Below, one piece after another: positions 4,655-30,857 of a stretch of DNA of 32,326 bases (within the stretch, counting starts at the first letter, position 1; each line of letters starts with the position of its first letter). This DNA is from a bacterium (GTDB lineage Bacteria > Patescibacteriota > Minisyncoccia > UBA6257 > JACOXY01). The translations under genes were made by a program, and so were the position numbers. The DNA lies in contig JAUXUB010000037.1 in the NCBI GenBank assembly GCA_030680955.1, positions 1 to 32,326 on the forward strand, given 5' to 3'. The notes beneath the pieces are model-generated. The model saw only the letters and a program-made list of their open reading frames with translations. It ran no database searches and was not told the DNA's origin.

Positions 4655-7165
4655 ATGACTGATTCAGGAACAACAACTTTTTATTTTGATGATCCACGAC
4701 TTTTTATGACAGCTCCTGGGCGAATGTTGGTTCGTTTGTTTAGATTTGGTGGTTTTATATTTCTTTTCGTTCTTACACTCGTACTATTGTTTTCAAATAC
4801 GCCACATATTTTTTGGTTCGGAGTTTTATTGTCACTATTTCTTTTGCATCAGGCATTACACTTTACTAAAGGAGTGCGTTCGCTTGAATATATAACAAAA
4901 GGGAAGCGATATAATTTAGCGGATTCTCTTGCGCCAGAAGGTTTTGCGATACTTGAGTCGGCGTTAGACGGTGCTATATTTAGCGGAGTTGATTTTAGAT
5001 TTGTACTGCTCAAAAAACTTTGTTCTTTAAAAGACGTTCAACACGTTTTTTTACGAATGGAAATTGATTATAAAGAAATCTTAGGTGAAGCAGAGCGACT
5101 TTTTAGCGATAAAGTTAATTTAGATAGAGTCGCGATGCTTGGGATAATTGAGGAAGTTGTCTTCGGTGCTTTTAAAGAAAGTCAGCTTAGCAATGAACAT
5201 TTTATTGAAGCGCGCACACTTATAGCTGGCTATTTTGAAGTAAATGATCCTAAAATTAAAAAAATACTCACTATATTTTCTATAGACGTTGCGCAAATAA
5301 GATCGGCGCTTATTTTTGGACATGTACATCAAAGTTTCTTGCAAAAGTTATTACGTCCAAGGGAATTGGGAGGAGCTTATGTTAAAAGAGTGCGACATCG
5401 TACAATGAATAGGTCATGGACTGCCCGTCCTACTCCGCTACTTGATGTCCACGCAAATGATCTTACAGATCTTGCTTATGCTGGCGCTGTTGGATTTCTA
5501 ATGGGTCATAAAAATGAATATGATAGATTGCTAGACGTACTGTCGAGACCAGGGAGCCCCGCCGCACTTTTAGTGGGAGATACAGGAATAGGAAAGGACA
5601 GTATTATTCGTCATTTAGCATTTAATATTACCAAAGATAAAGTCCCAGCAATATTATTTGATAAACGTTTAGTTGAGCTTAGAATAGAAAGCGCTATAGC
5701 TGGTCTACCGCCACATGAAGCAGAAAAGCGGATGCAGGGTTTAATTAGAGAAATAGTTACTGCCGGCAATATAATTTTATATATTCCACAAATTGATATG
5801 CTTGCAAAGACGGCAGAAAGTGGTCTTTTGAATGTTGCAGATTCCCTACTTCCCGTTTTGCGTGATGGCTTATTCCCTGTAATTGGAGGTGTAACACCAC
5901 AAGCTTACAAAAAAAATATAGAAACAAGAGCAGATTTTGCTGCTATATTTGATGTTATCAATGTAGTTGAAATTAGCGGAGAAGAGGCACTTACATATCT
6001 AACATACTCTGCAATGTCATTAGAAAAACAATATGGTGTAATTGTTACGGTTGGTGCGGTAAAAGAAGCTGTGGCGCTTGCCAAAAAATATTTTAGAGAT
6101 AGACCACTTCCGGGAAGCGCTGGAGATCTACTGCGAGAAGCTATGGCAGAGGCCGCGCGACTTAAAGAAGAGGCTGTTACGGCGGCTATCATAATTAAAG
6201 TCGCTGAAAAGCGCATTAATATTCCTATTCACGAAGTAAGTGAAGGAGAGGCAGATGCTCTTATGCATCTTGAAGAGCGAATTCACGAGCGCTATATAGA
6301 CCAAATCAAAGCCGTTGCTTCGGTTTCGAGAGCACTGCGCGAATATAGAAGTGGTCTTACGCGACAAGGAGGTCCAATCGCTTCGTTTTTATTTGTTGGA
6401 CCAACTGGCGTAGGCAAAACTGAACTTTCTAAGATTTTAGCAGAACTTCAATTTGGATCAAAAGATATGATGGTGCGTTTTGACATGTCTGAATTTCAAG
6501 AAAAGGGAAGTTTAACTCGGTTTATCGGGTCTTCAGACGGGGTAATTACAGGAGCCCTAACGGATGCCATAAGATCAAAACCGTACGCATTGGTCCTACT
6601 TGATGAATTCGAAAAAGCTGAAAAAGACATTTTAAATCTTTTTTTGCAGGTACTAGATGAGGGGCGCCTTACAGATGGAGTGGGTCGAGTGGCTAATTTT
6701 GAAAATTCTATAATTGTTGCAACTTCTAATGCTCACTCAGAATTTATTACTCTGGCATTAGAAGTTGGCAAGAAATCGGAAGAAATACGAGATGAAGTTA
6801 AGCGTCATCTTGTTGATTATTTTAAACCAGAACTAATCAACCGTTTTTCTGATGTGATTATTTTTGAGCCACTCGGGATTGAAGATATGAAAAAAGTAAC
6901 TGAATTGCAACTTATGGAGCTCGCAAAAGATGTTTTGGGTACGCAAGAGATTGTGCTTACTTTTACGGCAGGAGTAGTTGAGGCCATAGCTCGCATTGGT
7001 TTTACTAAAACTTTTGGAGCGCGACCACTGCGTCGTGCTATAGAAGAAAATCTAAGAGGAGAACTCGCAAACCAAATTCTCCAGGGCAAAATTTTAAAAA
7101 GTGATGCAATTCTAATCAGTTATGAGGGAGAAAAATTTGTTTTTAGTAAAAATAAATCTAATTAA
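4655..7165 (+). CDS. Membrane-anchored ClpC-like double-AAA+ ATPase
   Basis: N-terminal TM pair; D1 Walker A GDTGIGKDS; D2 Walker A GPTGVGKTE, Walker B ALVLLDEFEKAE, NRFSDVIIFEPL, TFGARPLRRAIE. Confidence 0.88.
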   Translation: MTDSGTTTFYFDDPRLFMTAPGRMLVRLFRFGGFIFLFVLTLVLLFSNTPHIFWFGVLLSLFLLHQALHFTKGVRSLEYITKGKRYNLADSLAPEGFAILESALDGAIFSGVDFRFVLLKKLCSLKDVQHVFLRMEIDYKEILGEAERLFSDKVNLDRVAMLGIIEEVVFGAFKESQLSNEHFIEARTLIAGYFEVNDPKIKKILTIFSIDVAQIRSALIFGHVHQSFLQKLLRPRELGGAYVKRVRHRTMNRSWTARPTPLLDVHANDLTDLAYAGAVGFLMGHKNEYDRLLDVLSRPGSPAALLVGDTGIGKDSIIRHLAFNITKDKVPAILFDKRLVELRIESAIAGLPPHEAEKRMQGLIREIVTAGNIILYIPQIDMLAKTAESGLLNVADSLLPVLRDGLFPVIGGVTPQAYKKNIETRADFAAIFDVINVVEISGEEALTYLTYSAMSLEKQYGVIVTVGAVKEAVALAKKYFRDRPLPGSAGDLLREAMAEAARLKEEAVTAAIIIKVAEKRINIPIHEVSEGEADALMHLEERIHERYIDQIKAVASVSRALREYRSGLTRQGGPIASFLFVGPTGVGKTELSKILAELQFGSKDMMVRFDMSEFQEKGSLTRFIGSSDGVITGALTDAIRSKPYALVLLDEFEKAEKDILNLFLQVLDEGRLTDGVGRVANFENSIIVATSNAHSEFITLALEVGKKSEEIRDEVKRHLVDYFKPELINRFSDVIIFEPLGIEDMKKVTELQLMELAKDVLGTQEIVLTFTAGVVEAIARIGFTKTFGARPLRRAIEENLRGELANQILQGKILKSDAILISYEGEKFVFSKNKSN

Positions 7166-10571: not shown

Positions 10572-11096
10572 TTATCTAATTTGGCTTCCCGGTTCTACTT
10601 CTCTCTCAGGCGTTAAAATTATCGGTAATCCATCTTCGTTTGTTACCGCAAGAAGCATACCTTGACTTTCCTCACCCATTAATTTTCTTGGTTCTAGATT
10701 GGCGATTATTACTATTTCGCGTCCTATTAAATCACTTGGTAAGTAGGATTTTCCTATTCCTGCAATAATTTGCCTGATTTCTCTAGATTCTGCGGGAATA
10801 GCTTCCAGTGTATTTAAATCAGCATTCCCCACAGCTACTTCAAGTATATTTTCAGGATTTTCTGCTGGAGGAATTATACCTAAAACGACTTTAAGTTTTA
10901 ACAATTTATCGGACCCTTCAATAGGTTCCGCACTTAAAATTTTAGCTACTCGTAGGTTTACCCTCTTAAAAATATCTAAATCAATTAAGTTGACGCTTTG
11001 GCTTTGCGGATCGTTTTTGTTATTAGCACTAGTGGCGCTCACATCCTTTTTGGGAGGGTCAACTTTCTTAAAATCATCTAAGCTAATCATAGACAT
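10572..11096 (-). CDS. Stand-alone tRNA-binding domain (EMAPII/Trbp111/MetRS C-terminal type)
   Basis: FKRVNLRVAKILSAEPIEGSDKLLKLKVVLG...REIVIIANLEPRKLMGEESQGMLLAV. Confidence 0.88.
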   Translation of the reverse strand: MSMISLDDFKKVDPPKKDVSATSANNKNDPQSQSVNLIDLDIFKRVNLRVAKILSAEPIEGSDKLLKLKVVLGIIPPAENPENILEVAVGNADLNTLEAIPAESREIRQIIAGIGKSYLPSDLIGREIVIIANLEPRKLMGEESQGMLLAVTNEDGLPIILTPEREVEPGSQIR

Positions 11097-14719: not shown

Positions 14720-14762
14720 TATTACCAAAAATAGCCTTATTTTATAGGCTATTTTTGAATTG

Positions 14763-15110
14763 TGGAAGTGGGGAGATTGAACTCCCGTCCAGAATTTAAC
14801 TCGGAGAACTTCTACGGGCGTAGTCTGACATATTTTTTAAGTGTTGCATACCAAGTGTCAGACAGCCAAGTATATAGCACTTTCCCGCTCAATTTTCATT
14901 CCCTCCGCAGGAGTAGGGAACAGAGCCTGATAATTTAACACCGACGATCACTCTATCAGGCGTCGAGAGCGTCGATGGGTCTTATGCAAATGCTAAGGCC
15001 GGTTGTTTGTTGAATGAGTTTGCACTTATTCTTTTGTAGAAGTTTTAAGAGATTCCACAGCTCTGCACGCTGTTCTCAAAATCAGCATTCTGTCGAAACC
15101 TTTCACCCCC
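14763..15110 (-). ncRNA. ssrA: tmRNA
   Basis: 5' GGGGGTGAAAGGTTTCGACAGAATGCTGA; 3' GGACGGGAGTTCAATCTCCCCACTTCCA; tag ORF 14982-15023 GCA...TAA = ANSFNKQPALAFA; smpB adjacent. Confidence 0.95.
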
Positions 15111-25850: not shown

Positions 25851-26612
25851 ATGTTAGAAGAACTCAAAAAAATAGGATTATCAGAGAACGAAGCCAAGGT
25901 CTATTTGGTATTATTAGAGATAGGTAGTGCAACTGCAGATGAAATTGCCAAAAAAGCTGGAGTAAAGCGACCAACTACTTATGTGCAACTTGAAGACCTC
26001 ATGAATAAAGGTTTAGTTTCGAGTTTTGAAAAAATAGTTAAAAAAGGTGGAGCAGAAAAAACTTTCTTCCGTGCTGAAGACCCAGACCATTTGCAAAAAT
26101 TGGTTGAGACCGAAAATAAAAAAGCTAAGGAGAGAATGCTAGTCTTAGAGAAAAGTTTGCCAGAACTTGGTAGACTATTTCAGTTTGCAGGGTCTCGGCC
26201 TAAGGTTAGATTTTTTGAAGGGAAAGAGGGATTGCAAACGATGCAAGATGAAGCTTTTAAGATGAAAGATAAACATATAATATCAATTGTCGATTTTGAC
26301 GGTATTATAAAAATTTTCCCAGATCATCCAGAAAAGCATACTCCAATCCGCGTGCAAAAAGGTATTCAATCAAAAGTCATTTATACTAGTGTGAATGGCG
26401 ATATTTTAGGACGCGAAAATAAAGCAATGTTACGTGAAACAAGATTCATTTCCCCTGATCAATTTCCTTTTACGTGTGATTTGGCAATTTACGATCATAT
26501 TTTGAGTATCTCAGCACTTCGTGAAAAATCGGTAGGAGTTTTAATAGAGGATAAGGATATTTCAAATTCGATGCGAGCATTGTTCAAGCTTTTGTGGGAA
26601 AAACTAAGTTAG
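25851..26612 (+). CDS. TrmB-family transcriptional regulator
   Basis: LKKIGLSENEAKVYLVLLEIGSATADEIAKKAGVKRPTTYVQLEDLMNKGLV; TATAAT 25839-25844 leaderless start. Confidence 0.88.
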   Translation: MLEELKKIGLSENEAKVYLVLLEIGSATADEIAKKAGVKRPTTYVQLEDLMNKGLVSSFEKIVKKGGAEKTFFRAEDPDHLQKLVETENKKAKERMLVLEKSLPELGRLFQFAGSRPKVRFFEGKEGLQTMQDEAFKMKDKHIISIVDFDGIIKIFPDHPEKHTPIRVQKGIQSKVIYTSVNGDILGRENKAMLRETRFISPDQFPFTCDLAIYDHILSISALREKSVGVLIEDKDISNSMRALFKLLWEKLS

Positions 26613-26653: not shown

Positions 26654-27065
26654 AGTCAAAACAGAGATTATCTATCGTTTTCGAACGATTCTTTTCTGTT
26701 TGAGCGCATTTCGAGAAGAAGACATCTGCTTTTCAATGAATTTTACTTCACTTGCCTTCGTTAGATTCCTGATCCACCATATTTCATATGGCACCTCCTT
26801 GATGTTTCTTAAAGATGGATATTGGCCGGTTGACCTCTGGTTTATGTCTCGTATTTTCCACAGCATCCATGCTGGGGAGCCTGATACTAAACATTAACCC
26901 ATCTTTGCAGTAATTGTAGCATATTATTAAGAAATAGTCAAATTTATCACAAAACAGTCTATTGAAATTGACATATTTCTGTGTTTTAAGATTGAAGAAA
27001 TGAGTAGAAAAAATGTGGTGAATGCTTACTAAAAAGCCCATTTTATGGGCTTCTGTCATAGGTAC

Positions 27066-27094
27066 TTGACAAAAATCAATTTATCGAGTATAAT
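27066..27094 (+). promoter_or_regulatory. Near-perfect sigma70 promoter
   Basis: TTGACA 27066-27071, 17-nt spacer, TATAAT 27089-27094. Confidence 0.85.
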
Positions 27095-27099
27095 GGCGG

Positions 27100-27795
27100 C
27101 AGGTTAGAATGAAATCTTGACTGTGGGGCTTCAAGATCCCATATAAGGAGCTGAAGATACAGATTGACCGTAACCACAAAATAACAGGTCTAAGTATAGT
27201 CGCTCCATTGCCTTGCCGTAGCATATTTGCGAAGGCAGGCGCCTCCTCTAAGGAGGCCAGTACTAGCAAAACCAATTATTGAACTTTGTGGTAGTGGCCT
27301 CTTTAGTGGGATGGAAAGCTCTTTTAAATTAAATAAAATCATCTGTACAGGAATTAGAGATTAACCAACGATCAACCACCGATAACCAATAACGCGATAC
27401 AAACTCAGAAAAGAGTTTCAGGTCGTTAGTTGTAAGTTGTAGGTCATAAGTTGTATGTTAATTCCCAATTTCTGTACAGATGGTCGCGCGTAGCCATCCA
27501 GGTACGGGGTCACGGAGTAACCCCTCCGTGTTCAGCAAAGGCTGTGTCCGTGGAATGGCCACCCGGATACAGATTCTGAGGCGATTCGCTGCCAAGCTAT
27601 GTCGTTCAGGACGACGTGGTTTGCTCACACCAAAGCCCTTGGTGTGATGGGGTCCTTCTTATTAAAGATAAGGAGGATTCAAAGCGGACGAGCAGGATTT
27701 ATCGGGCCAGTCGACTGAGGCTAAGAACCTCCGATAAGGGCTCAAATCCTTCCTGCTCCCAGGTACCTGACCTGGACTGCGCGCGACGTTTTTTT
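27100..27795 (+). ncRNA. Candidate large structured noncoding RNA, class not recognised
   Basis: Strong promoter, no convincing ORF, three domains closed by long-range helices (27173-27180/27285-27292; 27341-27365/27457-27481; 27483-27503/27770-27787), many local hairpins, T7 tract 27789-27795. Confidence 0.65.
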
Positions 27796-27832
27796 GGGAA
27801 AGGTTTTTACGTCGATTAAAAACCTACCACCA

Positions 27833-27875
27833 CCAAGAGAGGCGAACACCTGCAACAAGGGTGCGCCTCTCTTGG
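27833..27875 (+). repeat. 12-bp perfect hairpin
   Basis: CCAAGAGAGGCG 27833-27844 / CGCCTCTCTTGG 27864-27875. Confidence 0.8.
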
Positions 27876-27929
27876 ATTCAAAAAAAGTTGTACCGTTTAG
27901 TGGGTTTCCCGGAGAAAGAATTCAAATTA

Positions 27930-28062
27930 GCCCGAGGGATCAGTATGACACTATTTCCCAGCTTCTGTGGTTCGTGTCGACCCTCGGGCCTCTTTCAAAG
28001 TTCATATATAAAATGTGGTAGTCTACGCCAAGGCTATGTCATACCGGTGGATTTTGAAAGGG
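27930..28062 (+). other. Structured module A
   Basis: GCCCGAGGG 27930-27938 / CCCTCGGGC 27981-27989, immediately followed by CTCTTTCAAAG 27990-28000 pairing with TTTGAAAGGG 28053-28062. Confidence 0.6.
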
Positions 28063-28192
28063 AAGACATGGGGTTTTCTCTTTGCACATAAAAAATTGAC
28101 GCTCTACCAACTAAAGGTAGCCTACGCTAAATAAGCTACGGTGAACCAAAACCCGCCTACGTCGAGACTTCGGCGAGGCAATGGAGGACGAG

Positions 28193-28483
28193 ATGCAGAA
28201 GACGAATGTTGAGCTCGCTCGCGAGCAGGGATGCACGGCGCGGCAGATTTCGAAGTCACGTCGACGTGGCTTGATCATGAAAATCATGAGGGTCGTAGGC
28301 AGGCGTAATGAAAGGGAAGCTGTGAAGTTTACGGCTCCTGCGCCACACCTCGATGAGCGTAGTCATCTCGCTCAAAAGCGTTCTCGCGCGGAGCGAGAGC
28401 GTGTCGAGCGGGCGCTCGCCGCGGCGGAGAAAGCCTCTGAAGCGAAGGGCGACGCGGAGGTGGCTGATTCATCGGCTAGCTAA
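28193..28483 (+). CDS. GC-rich small basic protein with HTH-like N-terminus
   Basis: GGAGG-N5-ATG at 28193; MQKTNVELAREQGCTARQISKSRRRG; local GC content clearly above surroundings. Confidence 0.55.
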   Translation: MQKTNVELAREQGCTARQISKSRRRGLIMKIMRVVGRRNEREAVKFTAPAPHLDERSHLAQKRSRAERERVERALAAAEKASEAKGDAEVADSSAS

Positions 28484-28500
28484 CGCACCACAACACAATC

Positions 28501-28815
28501 GGAGAGGTGAGCCTCGCTCACCTCTCCCTCTATCCAGTTTTATTTTTAACATGGGCTGCAAAAGTGGATCTGGATAGAGGGAGATGATTGAGTATGAATG
28601 ATAAATGTTTCAAATAGAAAGGGGGTGGATTGGTGAAGTATTATGTCCATCGTGGCGTAGTTTACTTCTCGCGTCGAGCCTATCTTCAGGCTCGAGACGG
28701 GGAGTAAACTGCCCCCAACAATTTGAAGGTTTTGTGGCGAACACCAGAAAGGTATTCTTCGGAATACCATCGCCACTCTTTTAAAGTCCGTATTTAAATG
28801 TGAACTTTGAAAGGG
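28501..28815 (+). other. Structured module B (series of 7-12 bp hairpins)
   Basis: 28501-28512/28516-28527; 28526-28537/28571-28582; 28659-28670 with 28703-28710 and 28674-28681/28688-28695; 28734-28740/28770-28776; 28751-28757/28762-28768; 28776-28787/28804-28815. Confidence 0.65.
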
Positions 28816-28944
28816 ATATTTTAAAAAAAAGTGAAAAAAATTGCCCAAGATAATAATGCGGCGTTTTTTTTCGTAACTAAATTCTAGTGTTTCGTTGTAT
28901 AATAGTTATACTATCCCTAATTAACCACTTCCTATAAGACTTTT

Positions 28945-29031
28945 GTCATTGCGAGGGCGAAGCCCGCGGCAATCCAGGAAATAATAGGATAAATCTGGAT
29001 TGCTTCGTCGTTCCTCCTCGCAAAGACGAGG
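28945..29031. repeat. REP/MITE-like palindromic element
   Basis: GTCATTGCGAGGGCGAAGCCCGCGGCAATCCAG ... CTGGATTGCTTCGTCGTTCCTCCTCGCAAAGAC; matches a GCGAAGC-type dispersed repeat pattern common in bacteria. Confidence 0.75.
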
Positions 29032-29066
29032 TTAAAAGAGTAGTGGTTAATTGGAGATGGTATTAT

Positions 29067-30857
29067 ATGGCTAAAAAGAAACTTACTTACAATCAAATAC
29101 AAGAAGGATTAGGTACTATTACACGTTTTTTAAAACCCTACCGTAGAGAGGTAATTATTTTAGTTGTAGTTAGCCTCATCTCTGCTTTAGGCAGTGCAAT
29201 TGCGCCATACCTTGTTGGGAAATTTTTTGATGCGTTATTAGGTAAAGTTGGGCCATTCATATTTTTTGGATATGTTGCCTCTCCCTTTGTGGTACTTTTA
29301 GGAATTTGGGCATTTGCCAAATTCTTAACTGATTTTGCAGAACGCTATAAAAATGTTGAATCGGAAAGAATTAGCACAACAATTGAAAGCGATTATATTA
29401 TTGGTGGCATGACGCATCTTATTAATTCTCCACTTGGATTTCACAAGAAGCACAAGATGGGAGAAATATTTAATCGCATTGAACGTGCCGCAGGTCGTCT
29501 AGGAAGCATAACAAGTCAAGTTGTCATTAACTTAGCGCCAGATATATTAAGTGTATTTTTTGCATTTTTTATTGTGATGTTTATTGATCCAATTTTAACA
29601 TTAGTGCTTTTTGGTGGCCTTTTAGTTTTCCTTATCGTTATTGCAATAGCGACGCCGCGATATATTGCTGTGCTTCAAAACGTCAACAAGGCATACAACA
29701 AGGCTTATGGCGAGGCATATGATTCGGTCATGAATGTTAATGCAGTAAAACAAGGTACGGCTGAGAATTATGAAAAAAGGAAATTGGAAAAAAACTTCAG
29801 ATACGCAGCTGTAAATTATTGGACGGATTACATGAAGATTCTTTCAAATCTAACGTTATCACAAAGGATTATTGTTTCACTTACTCAATTAACGATTTTT
29901 ATTATTTCTGTCTATTTTGTTCAAAATGGAAGAATTTCTTTGGGTGACTTAGCTGCATTTAATGGCTATGCCGCTATGGTATTCGGGCCATTTTATAGAA
30001 TGGGTTCCAATTGGGATCTTATCCAAAATGGACTAATTGCAATGCAGAGAGCAGAGAAGATTCTTGGAATTAATGAAGAACTATATACTCCTCCTAATGC
30101 TTTTGTATATGCTAATCCACAAGGAAATATAGAATTCAGAAGCGTTAGCTTTAAGTACGGAAGAGGACAGAGCTCGGTTCTTACCGATATTTCCTTTAAT
30201 ATAGAAGCAGGAAAAAAAGTTGCACTAGTTGGCGAGTCTGGTGTGGGGAAATCAACACTAACGGATTTAATGTCGTTCTATTATAAACCAACGAAAGGGG
30301 AAATTCTTATTGATGGCCGTGATATTTCGCGAGTTGACCTTACTTCTCTCCGTTCTTTTATCGCCGTAGTCGCACAAGAACCCATCTTATTTAATGAAAC
30401 AATTAAAAATAATATTAAGTACGGTTCATTTGGCATGACTGACGCAAAAATGTTAATGGCTGCCAAAATGGCTTATGCCGATGAGTTTATTCAGAAACTT
30501 CCTAAAAAATATAATCAACGGGTGGGAGACCGTGGTATTAGGCTTTCGGCTGGACAAAAACAGCGCATTGCAATTGCAAGAGCAATACTTAGAAATCCCC
30601 GAATTTTAATTTTAGATGAACCAACCTCTGCGCTTGATGCAAAAAATGAAAAATATATAACTGAATCTCTTGAAAAATTAATGGAAGGACGCACAACTTT
30701 TATTATTGCACATCGATTAAGCACAGTAAGAAAGGCGGATGTAATTTTTGTACTAGAGAAAGGAAAAATTGTAGAGCGTGGCAATCACGAAGAACTCATT
30801 AAAATTGAAGATGGCGTCTATAAAAAATTATACGATTTTCAAATAGGCTTGAAGTAA
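29067..30857 (+). CDS. ABC transporter, fused permease-ATPase (exporter type)
   Basis: N-terminal TMs; GESGVGKST, LSAGQKQRIAIARAIL, ILILDEPTSALD. Confidence 0.95.
   Translation: MAKKKLTYNQIQEGLGTITRFLKPYRREVIILVVVSLISALGSAIAPYLVGKFFDALLGKVGPFIFFGYVASPFVVLLGIWAFAKFLTDFAERYKNVESERISTTIESDYIIGGMTHLINSPLGFHKKHKMGEIFNRIERAAGRLGSITSQVVINLAPDILSVFFAFFIVMFIDPILTLVLFGGLLVFLIVIAIATPRYIAVLQNVNKAYNKAYGEAYDSVMNVNAVKQGTAENYEKRKLEKNFRYAAVNYWTDYMKILSNLTLSQRIIVSLTQLTIFIISVYFVQNGRISLGDLAAFNGYAAMVFGPFYRMGSNWDLIQNGLIAMQRAEKILGINEELYTPPNAFVYANPQGNIEFRSVSFKYGRGQSSVLTDISFNIEAGKKVALVGESGVGKSTLTDLMSFYYKPTKGEILIDGRDISRVDLTSLRSFIAVVAQEPILFNETIKNNIKYGSFGMTDAKMLMAAKMAYADEFIQKLPKKYNQRVGDRGIRLSAGQKQRIAIARAILRNPRILILDEPTSALDAKNEKYITESLEKLMEGRTTFIIAHRLSTVRKADVIFVLEKGKIVERGNHEELIKIEDGVYKKLYDFQIGLK

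Follow-up and report, generated by a model that had tools for sequence, protein, structure and literature searches.

Gene content of the locus

The window, that is the whole 32,326-nt stretch of DNA analysed, belongs to a CPR bacterium whose genome (G000) comprises 1.07 Mb in 80 contigs. The gene for a TrmB-family regulator is followed by a promoter, TTGACA-N17-TATAAT, whose perfect match at 27066 was confirmed by a check of the sequence, and by a GC-rich island of about 1.8 kb that extends to ~28870, upstream of an ABC transporter gene. The island contains tiny basic open reading frames (ORFs) led by SD sequences as well as recurrent hairpins; its promoter-proximal part is the core described below. 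The same gene order is found in G001 (Ca. Liptonbacteria), the single relative of the same family examined, at the locus L073. The TrmB and ABC transporter products share 60% and 59% identity with those of the window, respectively, and 2.3 kb without a long ORF separate the two genes. The promoter region aligns with positions 10260-10321 of L073 (BLAST E value 3e-4). The features are listed in Table 1.

Table 1. Features of the TrmB–ABC transporter region (window positions unless a locus is named)
Feature	Position	Strand	Remark
TrmB-family regulator	25851-26612	+	upstream syntenic anchor
SD, hairpin and 8-codon ORF	26761-26807; L073 9987-10035	-	conserved, seen in both
Promoter TTGACA-N17-TATAAT	27066-27094	+	perfect sigma-70 consensus; position downstream of TrmB kept in relatives
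Promoter-proximal segment ("domain 1")	27101-27329	+	variable; structured, sequence not conserved
Domain 2	27330-27482	+	conserved basal helix 27341-27354/27468-27481; apical part variable
Domain 3	27483-27787	+	multi-hairpin junction enclosed by conserved closing helices 27487-27496/27773-27783
T7 run after domain 3	27789-27795	+	possible terminator in G000 only
Recurrent spacer hairpin CCTCTTTCAAAG...TTTTGAAAGGGA	27989-28063	+	same kind in L073, L085 and L087
Basic small ORF, 96 aa	28193-28483	+	led by GGAGG, pI 10.6; followed by hairpin 28501-28527
Possible SD-led ORF, 24 aa	28633-28707	+	from ORF/SD scan
GCGGCGTTTTTTTT	28858-28872	+	likely unit end just 5′ of the ABC transporter promoter region; read from sequence
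ABC transporter	29043-30857	+	downstream syntenic anchor

From the promoter to ~27945, neither an SD-led ORF of at least 20 amino acids nor a Pfam-supported ORF was found, which agrees with the original prediction of about 700 nt without a convincing ORF. The product of the 96-aa ORF has no match in Pfam or NCBIfam and only a sub-threshold match in PHROG. The spacer hairpin CTYCYAYCAAAG...TTTTGRYRGGAG of the window recurs in L073 (10451-10516 and 11529-11590) and several times in each of L085 and L087, the equivalent loci of Yanofskybacteria and Parcubacteria Gr01. This hairpin often stands shortly upstream of an SD-led ORF. Tiny basic proteins with a GGAH-like motif are encoded at L073 11676-11834, L085 10172-10330 and, in genome G095, L124 4196-4330; searches with the L073 and L085 proteins gave no family match. 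A GGAH-like ORF with an in-frame TAG after four codons was noticed by eye at ~12164-12297 of L087. At the place equivalent to GCGGCGTTTTTTTT, L073 carries CGCGCG...CGCGCGTTTTT.

On the opposite strand between the TrmB gene and the promoter, a conserved SD precedes a hairpin and an ORF of 8 codons (MKYGGSGI / MKHGGEAI). Just upstream of the ABC transporter gene, at 28945-29027, lies an imperfect 33-nt inverted repeat of the dispersed-repeat type (GTCATTGCGAGGGCGAAGCCC...), which was not seen in the G001 sequence. An ordinary tmRNA with the tag ANSFNKQPALAFA is located at 14760-15110 on the minus strand.

Folding of the region

The extensive complementarity predicted downstream of the promoter proved to be an extreme foldability. 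The segment 27100-27795 has a minimum free energy (MFE) of -284.6 kcal/mol, with z = -11.0 against dinucleotide shuffles, and domain 3 alone reaches z = -8.1, while eight coding control segments fold at z of -1.3 to +0.4. In this stability, well beyond that of the shuffles, the region resembles the large structured non-coding RNAs of bacteria; the antisense strand likewise folds unusually well. A scan of the whole window identified 27151-29000 as its most strongly folded stretch, and the structured region continues past 27795 to ~28870.

The individual helices were assessed by their partition-function pair probabilities, and the three domains originally proposed fared differently. The closing helix of domain 1 and its TGCCTT/AAGGCA and GCCTCCT/AGGAGGC hairpins have probabilities of 0.00-0.01; the element AAGGAGGCCA of this domain pairs instead with TGGCCTCTTT. 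Domain 2 is well supported, with 1.00 for the basal helix and 0.95 for the apical one. Most of domain 3 stood as well: the closing helix (0.99), CACGGAG/CTCCGTG (0.98), GTCGT/ACGAC (1.00), CACACCAA/TTGGTGTG (0.98), CTTAT/ATAAG (0.99) and GAGCAGG/CCTGCTC (0.93) are all probable, but TTATCGG/CCGATAA (0.00) is not and TCCAGGT/ACCTGGA is weakly supported (0.26). The helix at 27690-27758 contains a T-loop-like CTCAAAT. A tRNA-like reading of it was rejected, since ARAGORN makes no call and the corresponding hairpin of L073 is just a short, simple stem.

Conservation of the core

Ordinary nucleotide BLAST overlooked the G001 homologue, which was exposed by synteny. With a gap-tolerant local alignment, 27330-27795 scores 53.7 against L073 10610-10955, compared with 20.1 ± 3.4 for dinucleotide shuffles (z = 10, reached in 0 of 300). 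Domains 2 and 3 thus have a homologue in G001. The alignment of domain 1 (z = -1.1) and of the sequence past 27795 to L073 is not clearly above shuffles. The T7 run, which the original prediction regarded as terminator-like, is present in the window and absent from L073.

The helices are conserved along with the sequence. Among the pairs of the window's own MFE structure, which was taken as the starting point of this two-sequence comparison, 55 have both bases aligned, and 47 of these are complementary in L073; sliding the partners by 1-3 positions leaves 15-24. The MFE structure of L073 itself contains 24 of the 55. All 17 aligned pairs of domain 2 are complementary, and a clear compensatory change occurs there at 27345/27477, which is G-C in the window and A-U in L073. 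Overall, the aligned pairs show two double and five single compatible changes, so that the covariation expected for a structured RNA is positive in direction but, with two sequences, statistically weak. The number and the sequence of the interior hairpins vary between the two, and the conserved part consists of the basal helices and short strings, in domain 3 GCGCGYAKCCATCCWGG and CCKGACSTGGAYTGCGCGMGAC. Directly upstream of domain 2, L073 has a second perfect promoter (10580-10608); the window matches it there (27312) at only 9 of 12 positions.

G000 and G001 each contain a single copy of the conserved 3′ string, and G000 has no second copy of either of two internal pieces that look repeat-like. 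These copy numbers speak against a multi-copy transposon. A MITE or REP element was looked for with these strings, and each of them has one copy in its own genome. The hairpin at 27209-27237 is also single copy in G000.

Search for known families and further relatives

No Rfam 15 covariance model matched the structured region of the window at gathering or permissive thresholds (E up to 10), and no family reached the gathering threshold in L073. The families without a match include OLE, ROOL, GOLLD, RNase P, tmRNA, 6S, SRP and the group I and II introns. A divergent RNase P, SRP or intron was dismissed on these grounds, and the suggested kinship with OLE, GOLLD or ROOL is reduced to a likeness of scale. 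BLAST in up to 246 genomes returned repeat-like short fragments only; since it missed the true homologue in the same family, these negatives are uninformative. When the 3′ motif was searched with three mismatches in the 246 genomes, chance matches lacking the 5′ motif were all that appeared outside G000 and G001, and the core has been found in these two genomes only. Of the seven exact matches to the 3′ motif in viral contigs, not one is accompanied by the 5′ motif, and the longer pattern has no match there; the phage and plasmid collections gave no match. The literature searched, whose coverage leaves out most subscription papers, contains no description of the locus.

Equivalent islands in other CPR families

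A perfect or near-perfect promoter is also located 15 to ~1400 nt downstream of the TrmB orthologues in L085, L087, G013, G035, G095 and G044. The equivalent promoters in these further families are followed by a strongly folded stretch (z of -3.6 to -9.4) and, in most of the islands, by small SD-led ORFs. The contents of islands from different families are unalignable, with no sequence similarity detected; within family f13, the G013 and G035 islands are similar (z = 12.3). The G035 island contains a type III hammerhead ribozyme according to Rfam (L127 3689-3744, minus strand), and the same hammerhead core is present in G013 (L126 ~5866-5915, plus strand). In G045, tandem hammerheads lie between small SD-led ORFs (L133, minus strand, ~540-600 from its 5′ end), and a tyrosine-recombinase-like ORF adjoins this array. 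A hammerhead, recognised by its three stems and CUGANGA...GAAA core, was detected neither in the island of the window nor in that of L073.

Interpretation

Of the original prediction, a structured RNA remains in the form of domains 2 and 3, which are conserved and match no Rfam family. A discrete three-domain RNA of about 700 nt ending at the T7 run is not supported, because domain 1 as drawn lacks thermodynamic support and its sequence is not conserved, the T7 run is not conserved, and the segment lies inside a longer island that resembles a transcription unit with small ORFs. The core is most likely a lineage-specific structured RNA that is cut from, or leads, a polycistronic small-gene transcript.

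We propose that the strong promoter downstream of the TrmB-type regulator transcribes the whole island. The first part of the transcript would be the structured non-coding core (27330-27795, about 460 nt), in which a long hairpin domain adjoins a domain of several hairpins that a GC helix closes; the second part would carry the tiny, mostly basic, SD-led ORFs with hairpins between them. The core would work as RNA and may be released from the primary transcript by cleavage or termination; the processing is suggested by the hammerheads in the islands of sister families, none being found in the window. In that form it would act as a stable structured RNA, to which the small basic proteins encoded with it possibly bind. 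This arrangement of promoter, island, structured core and small ORFs is the best explanation as a whole, and we give it about an even chance of being correct.

The core might instead be a cis-acting leader, a long structured 5′ untranslated region or a processing or stability element that controls the downstream small ORFs, with no independent role. In both genomes the fold does lie downstream of the promoter and ahead of the first SD-led ORF, hairpins of a recurrent type stand in front of ORFs in islands of this kind, and the G045 hammerheads are placed between small ORFs. Yet the first convincing ORF is reached only after ~1.1 kb (window) or 1.3 kb (L073), which would make a very long leader, and we consider this reading possible, if rather unlikely. 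Two features of the sequence favour, without proving, a role of the core's own: L073 has its second promoter immediately upstream of domain 2, which suggests that the core can be transcribed alone, and the core is conserved in preference to the region that follows it. It is improbable that the locus acts at the DNA level as an integron-like or other mobile cassette array with the palindromes as recombination sites. The fixed promoter followed by lineage-specific contents of odd GC would suit such an array, as would the tyrosine-recombinase-like ORF of G045, but an integron integrase exceeded the cut-off in none of six genomes, no attC-like core pairs were found, and both the core string and the two repeat-like pieces inside the region have one copy each. 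The joint presence of IntI and attC sites that defines an integron was not found.

Some stretches of domains 1 and 2 are similar to short repeats in other members of the order, as would be expected if the region were functionless decaying DNA or an accumulation of palindromic repeats. The maintenance of domains 2 and 3 between genera whose flanks have diverged, the complementary changes at helices and the conserved perfect promoter make this very improbable. Even less credence is given to a small protein whose frame (27616-27819) would cross the 3′ portion of domain 3 and has P-D-L/V-D-C-A-R in common with L073. A 7-codon stretch shows synonymous or conservative changes only between the translations of the window and L073, and a weak AGGA precedes the GTG at 27616; other conserved anchors, however, shift phase between the two, the frame has no family match, and the two ORFs terminate in unrelated sequence.

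The structured RNA is comparable with OLE, ROOL and GOLLD in scale, multi-domain architecture and non-coding nature. It differs from them in the missing Rfam match at E 10, the host group, the surrounding island of tiny ORFs and the shortness of the conserved primary-sequence stretches. With the hammerhead arrays of G035, G013 and G045 it shares the combination of structured RNA and small ORFs, and the G035 and G013 arrays likewise follow TrmB and a promoter of this type; unlike these arrays, the window and L073 have no detected hammerhead, and the sequences are unalignable. Integron cassette arrays have a similar fixed promoter, variable downstream content and palindromic spacers, but neither an IntI above the cut-off nor attC-like cores were detected here. 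Long structured 5′ leaders of bacterial operons occupy the same position between promoter and ORFs; here the length exceeds 1 kb, and the core is conserved whereas the downstream region is not.

It is tentatively suggested that large structured RNAs forming a class new to CPR bacteria and to RNA families at large are made here. Such an RNA would be encoded at a dedicated, fast-evolving locus downstream of TrmB, would be freed from a polycistronic transcript (in some lineages by self-cleaving ribozymes) and would form a lineage-specific RNP together with the tiny basic proteins encoded alongside it. Despite the streamlining of CPR genomes, several families keep 1-2 kb of DNA at this locus that is highly structured and for the most part non-coding, downstream of a textbook promoter. 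The missing Rfam match and a homologue invisible to BLAST even within the family may explain why such loci have not been annotated. If confirmed, TrmB and the promoter would provide a syntenic handle with which uncultivated bacteria could be searched for a fast-evolving group of structured RNAs and small proteins.
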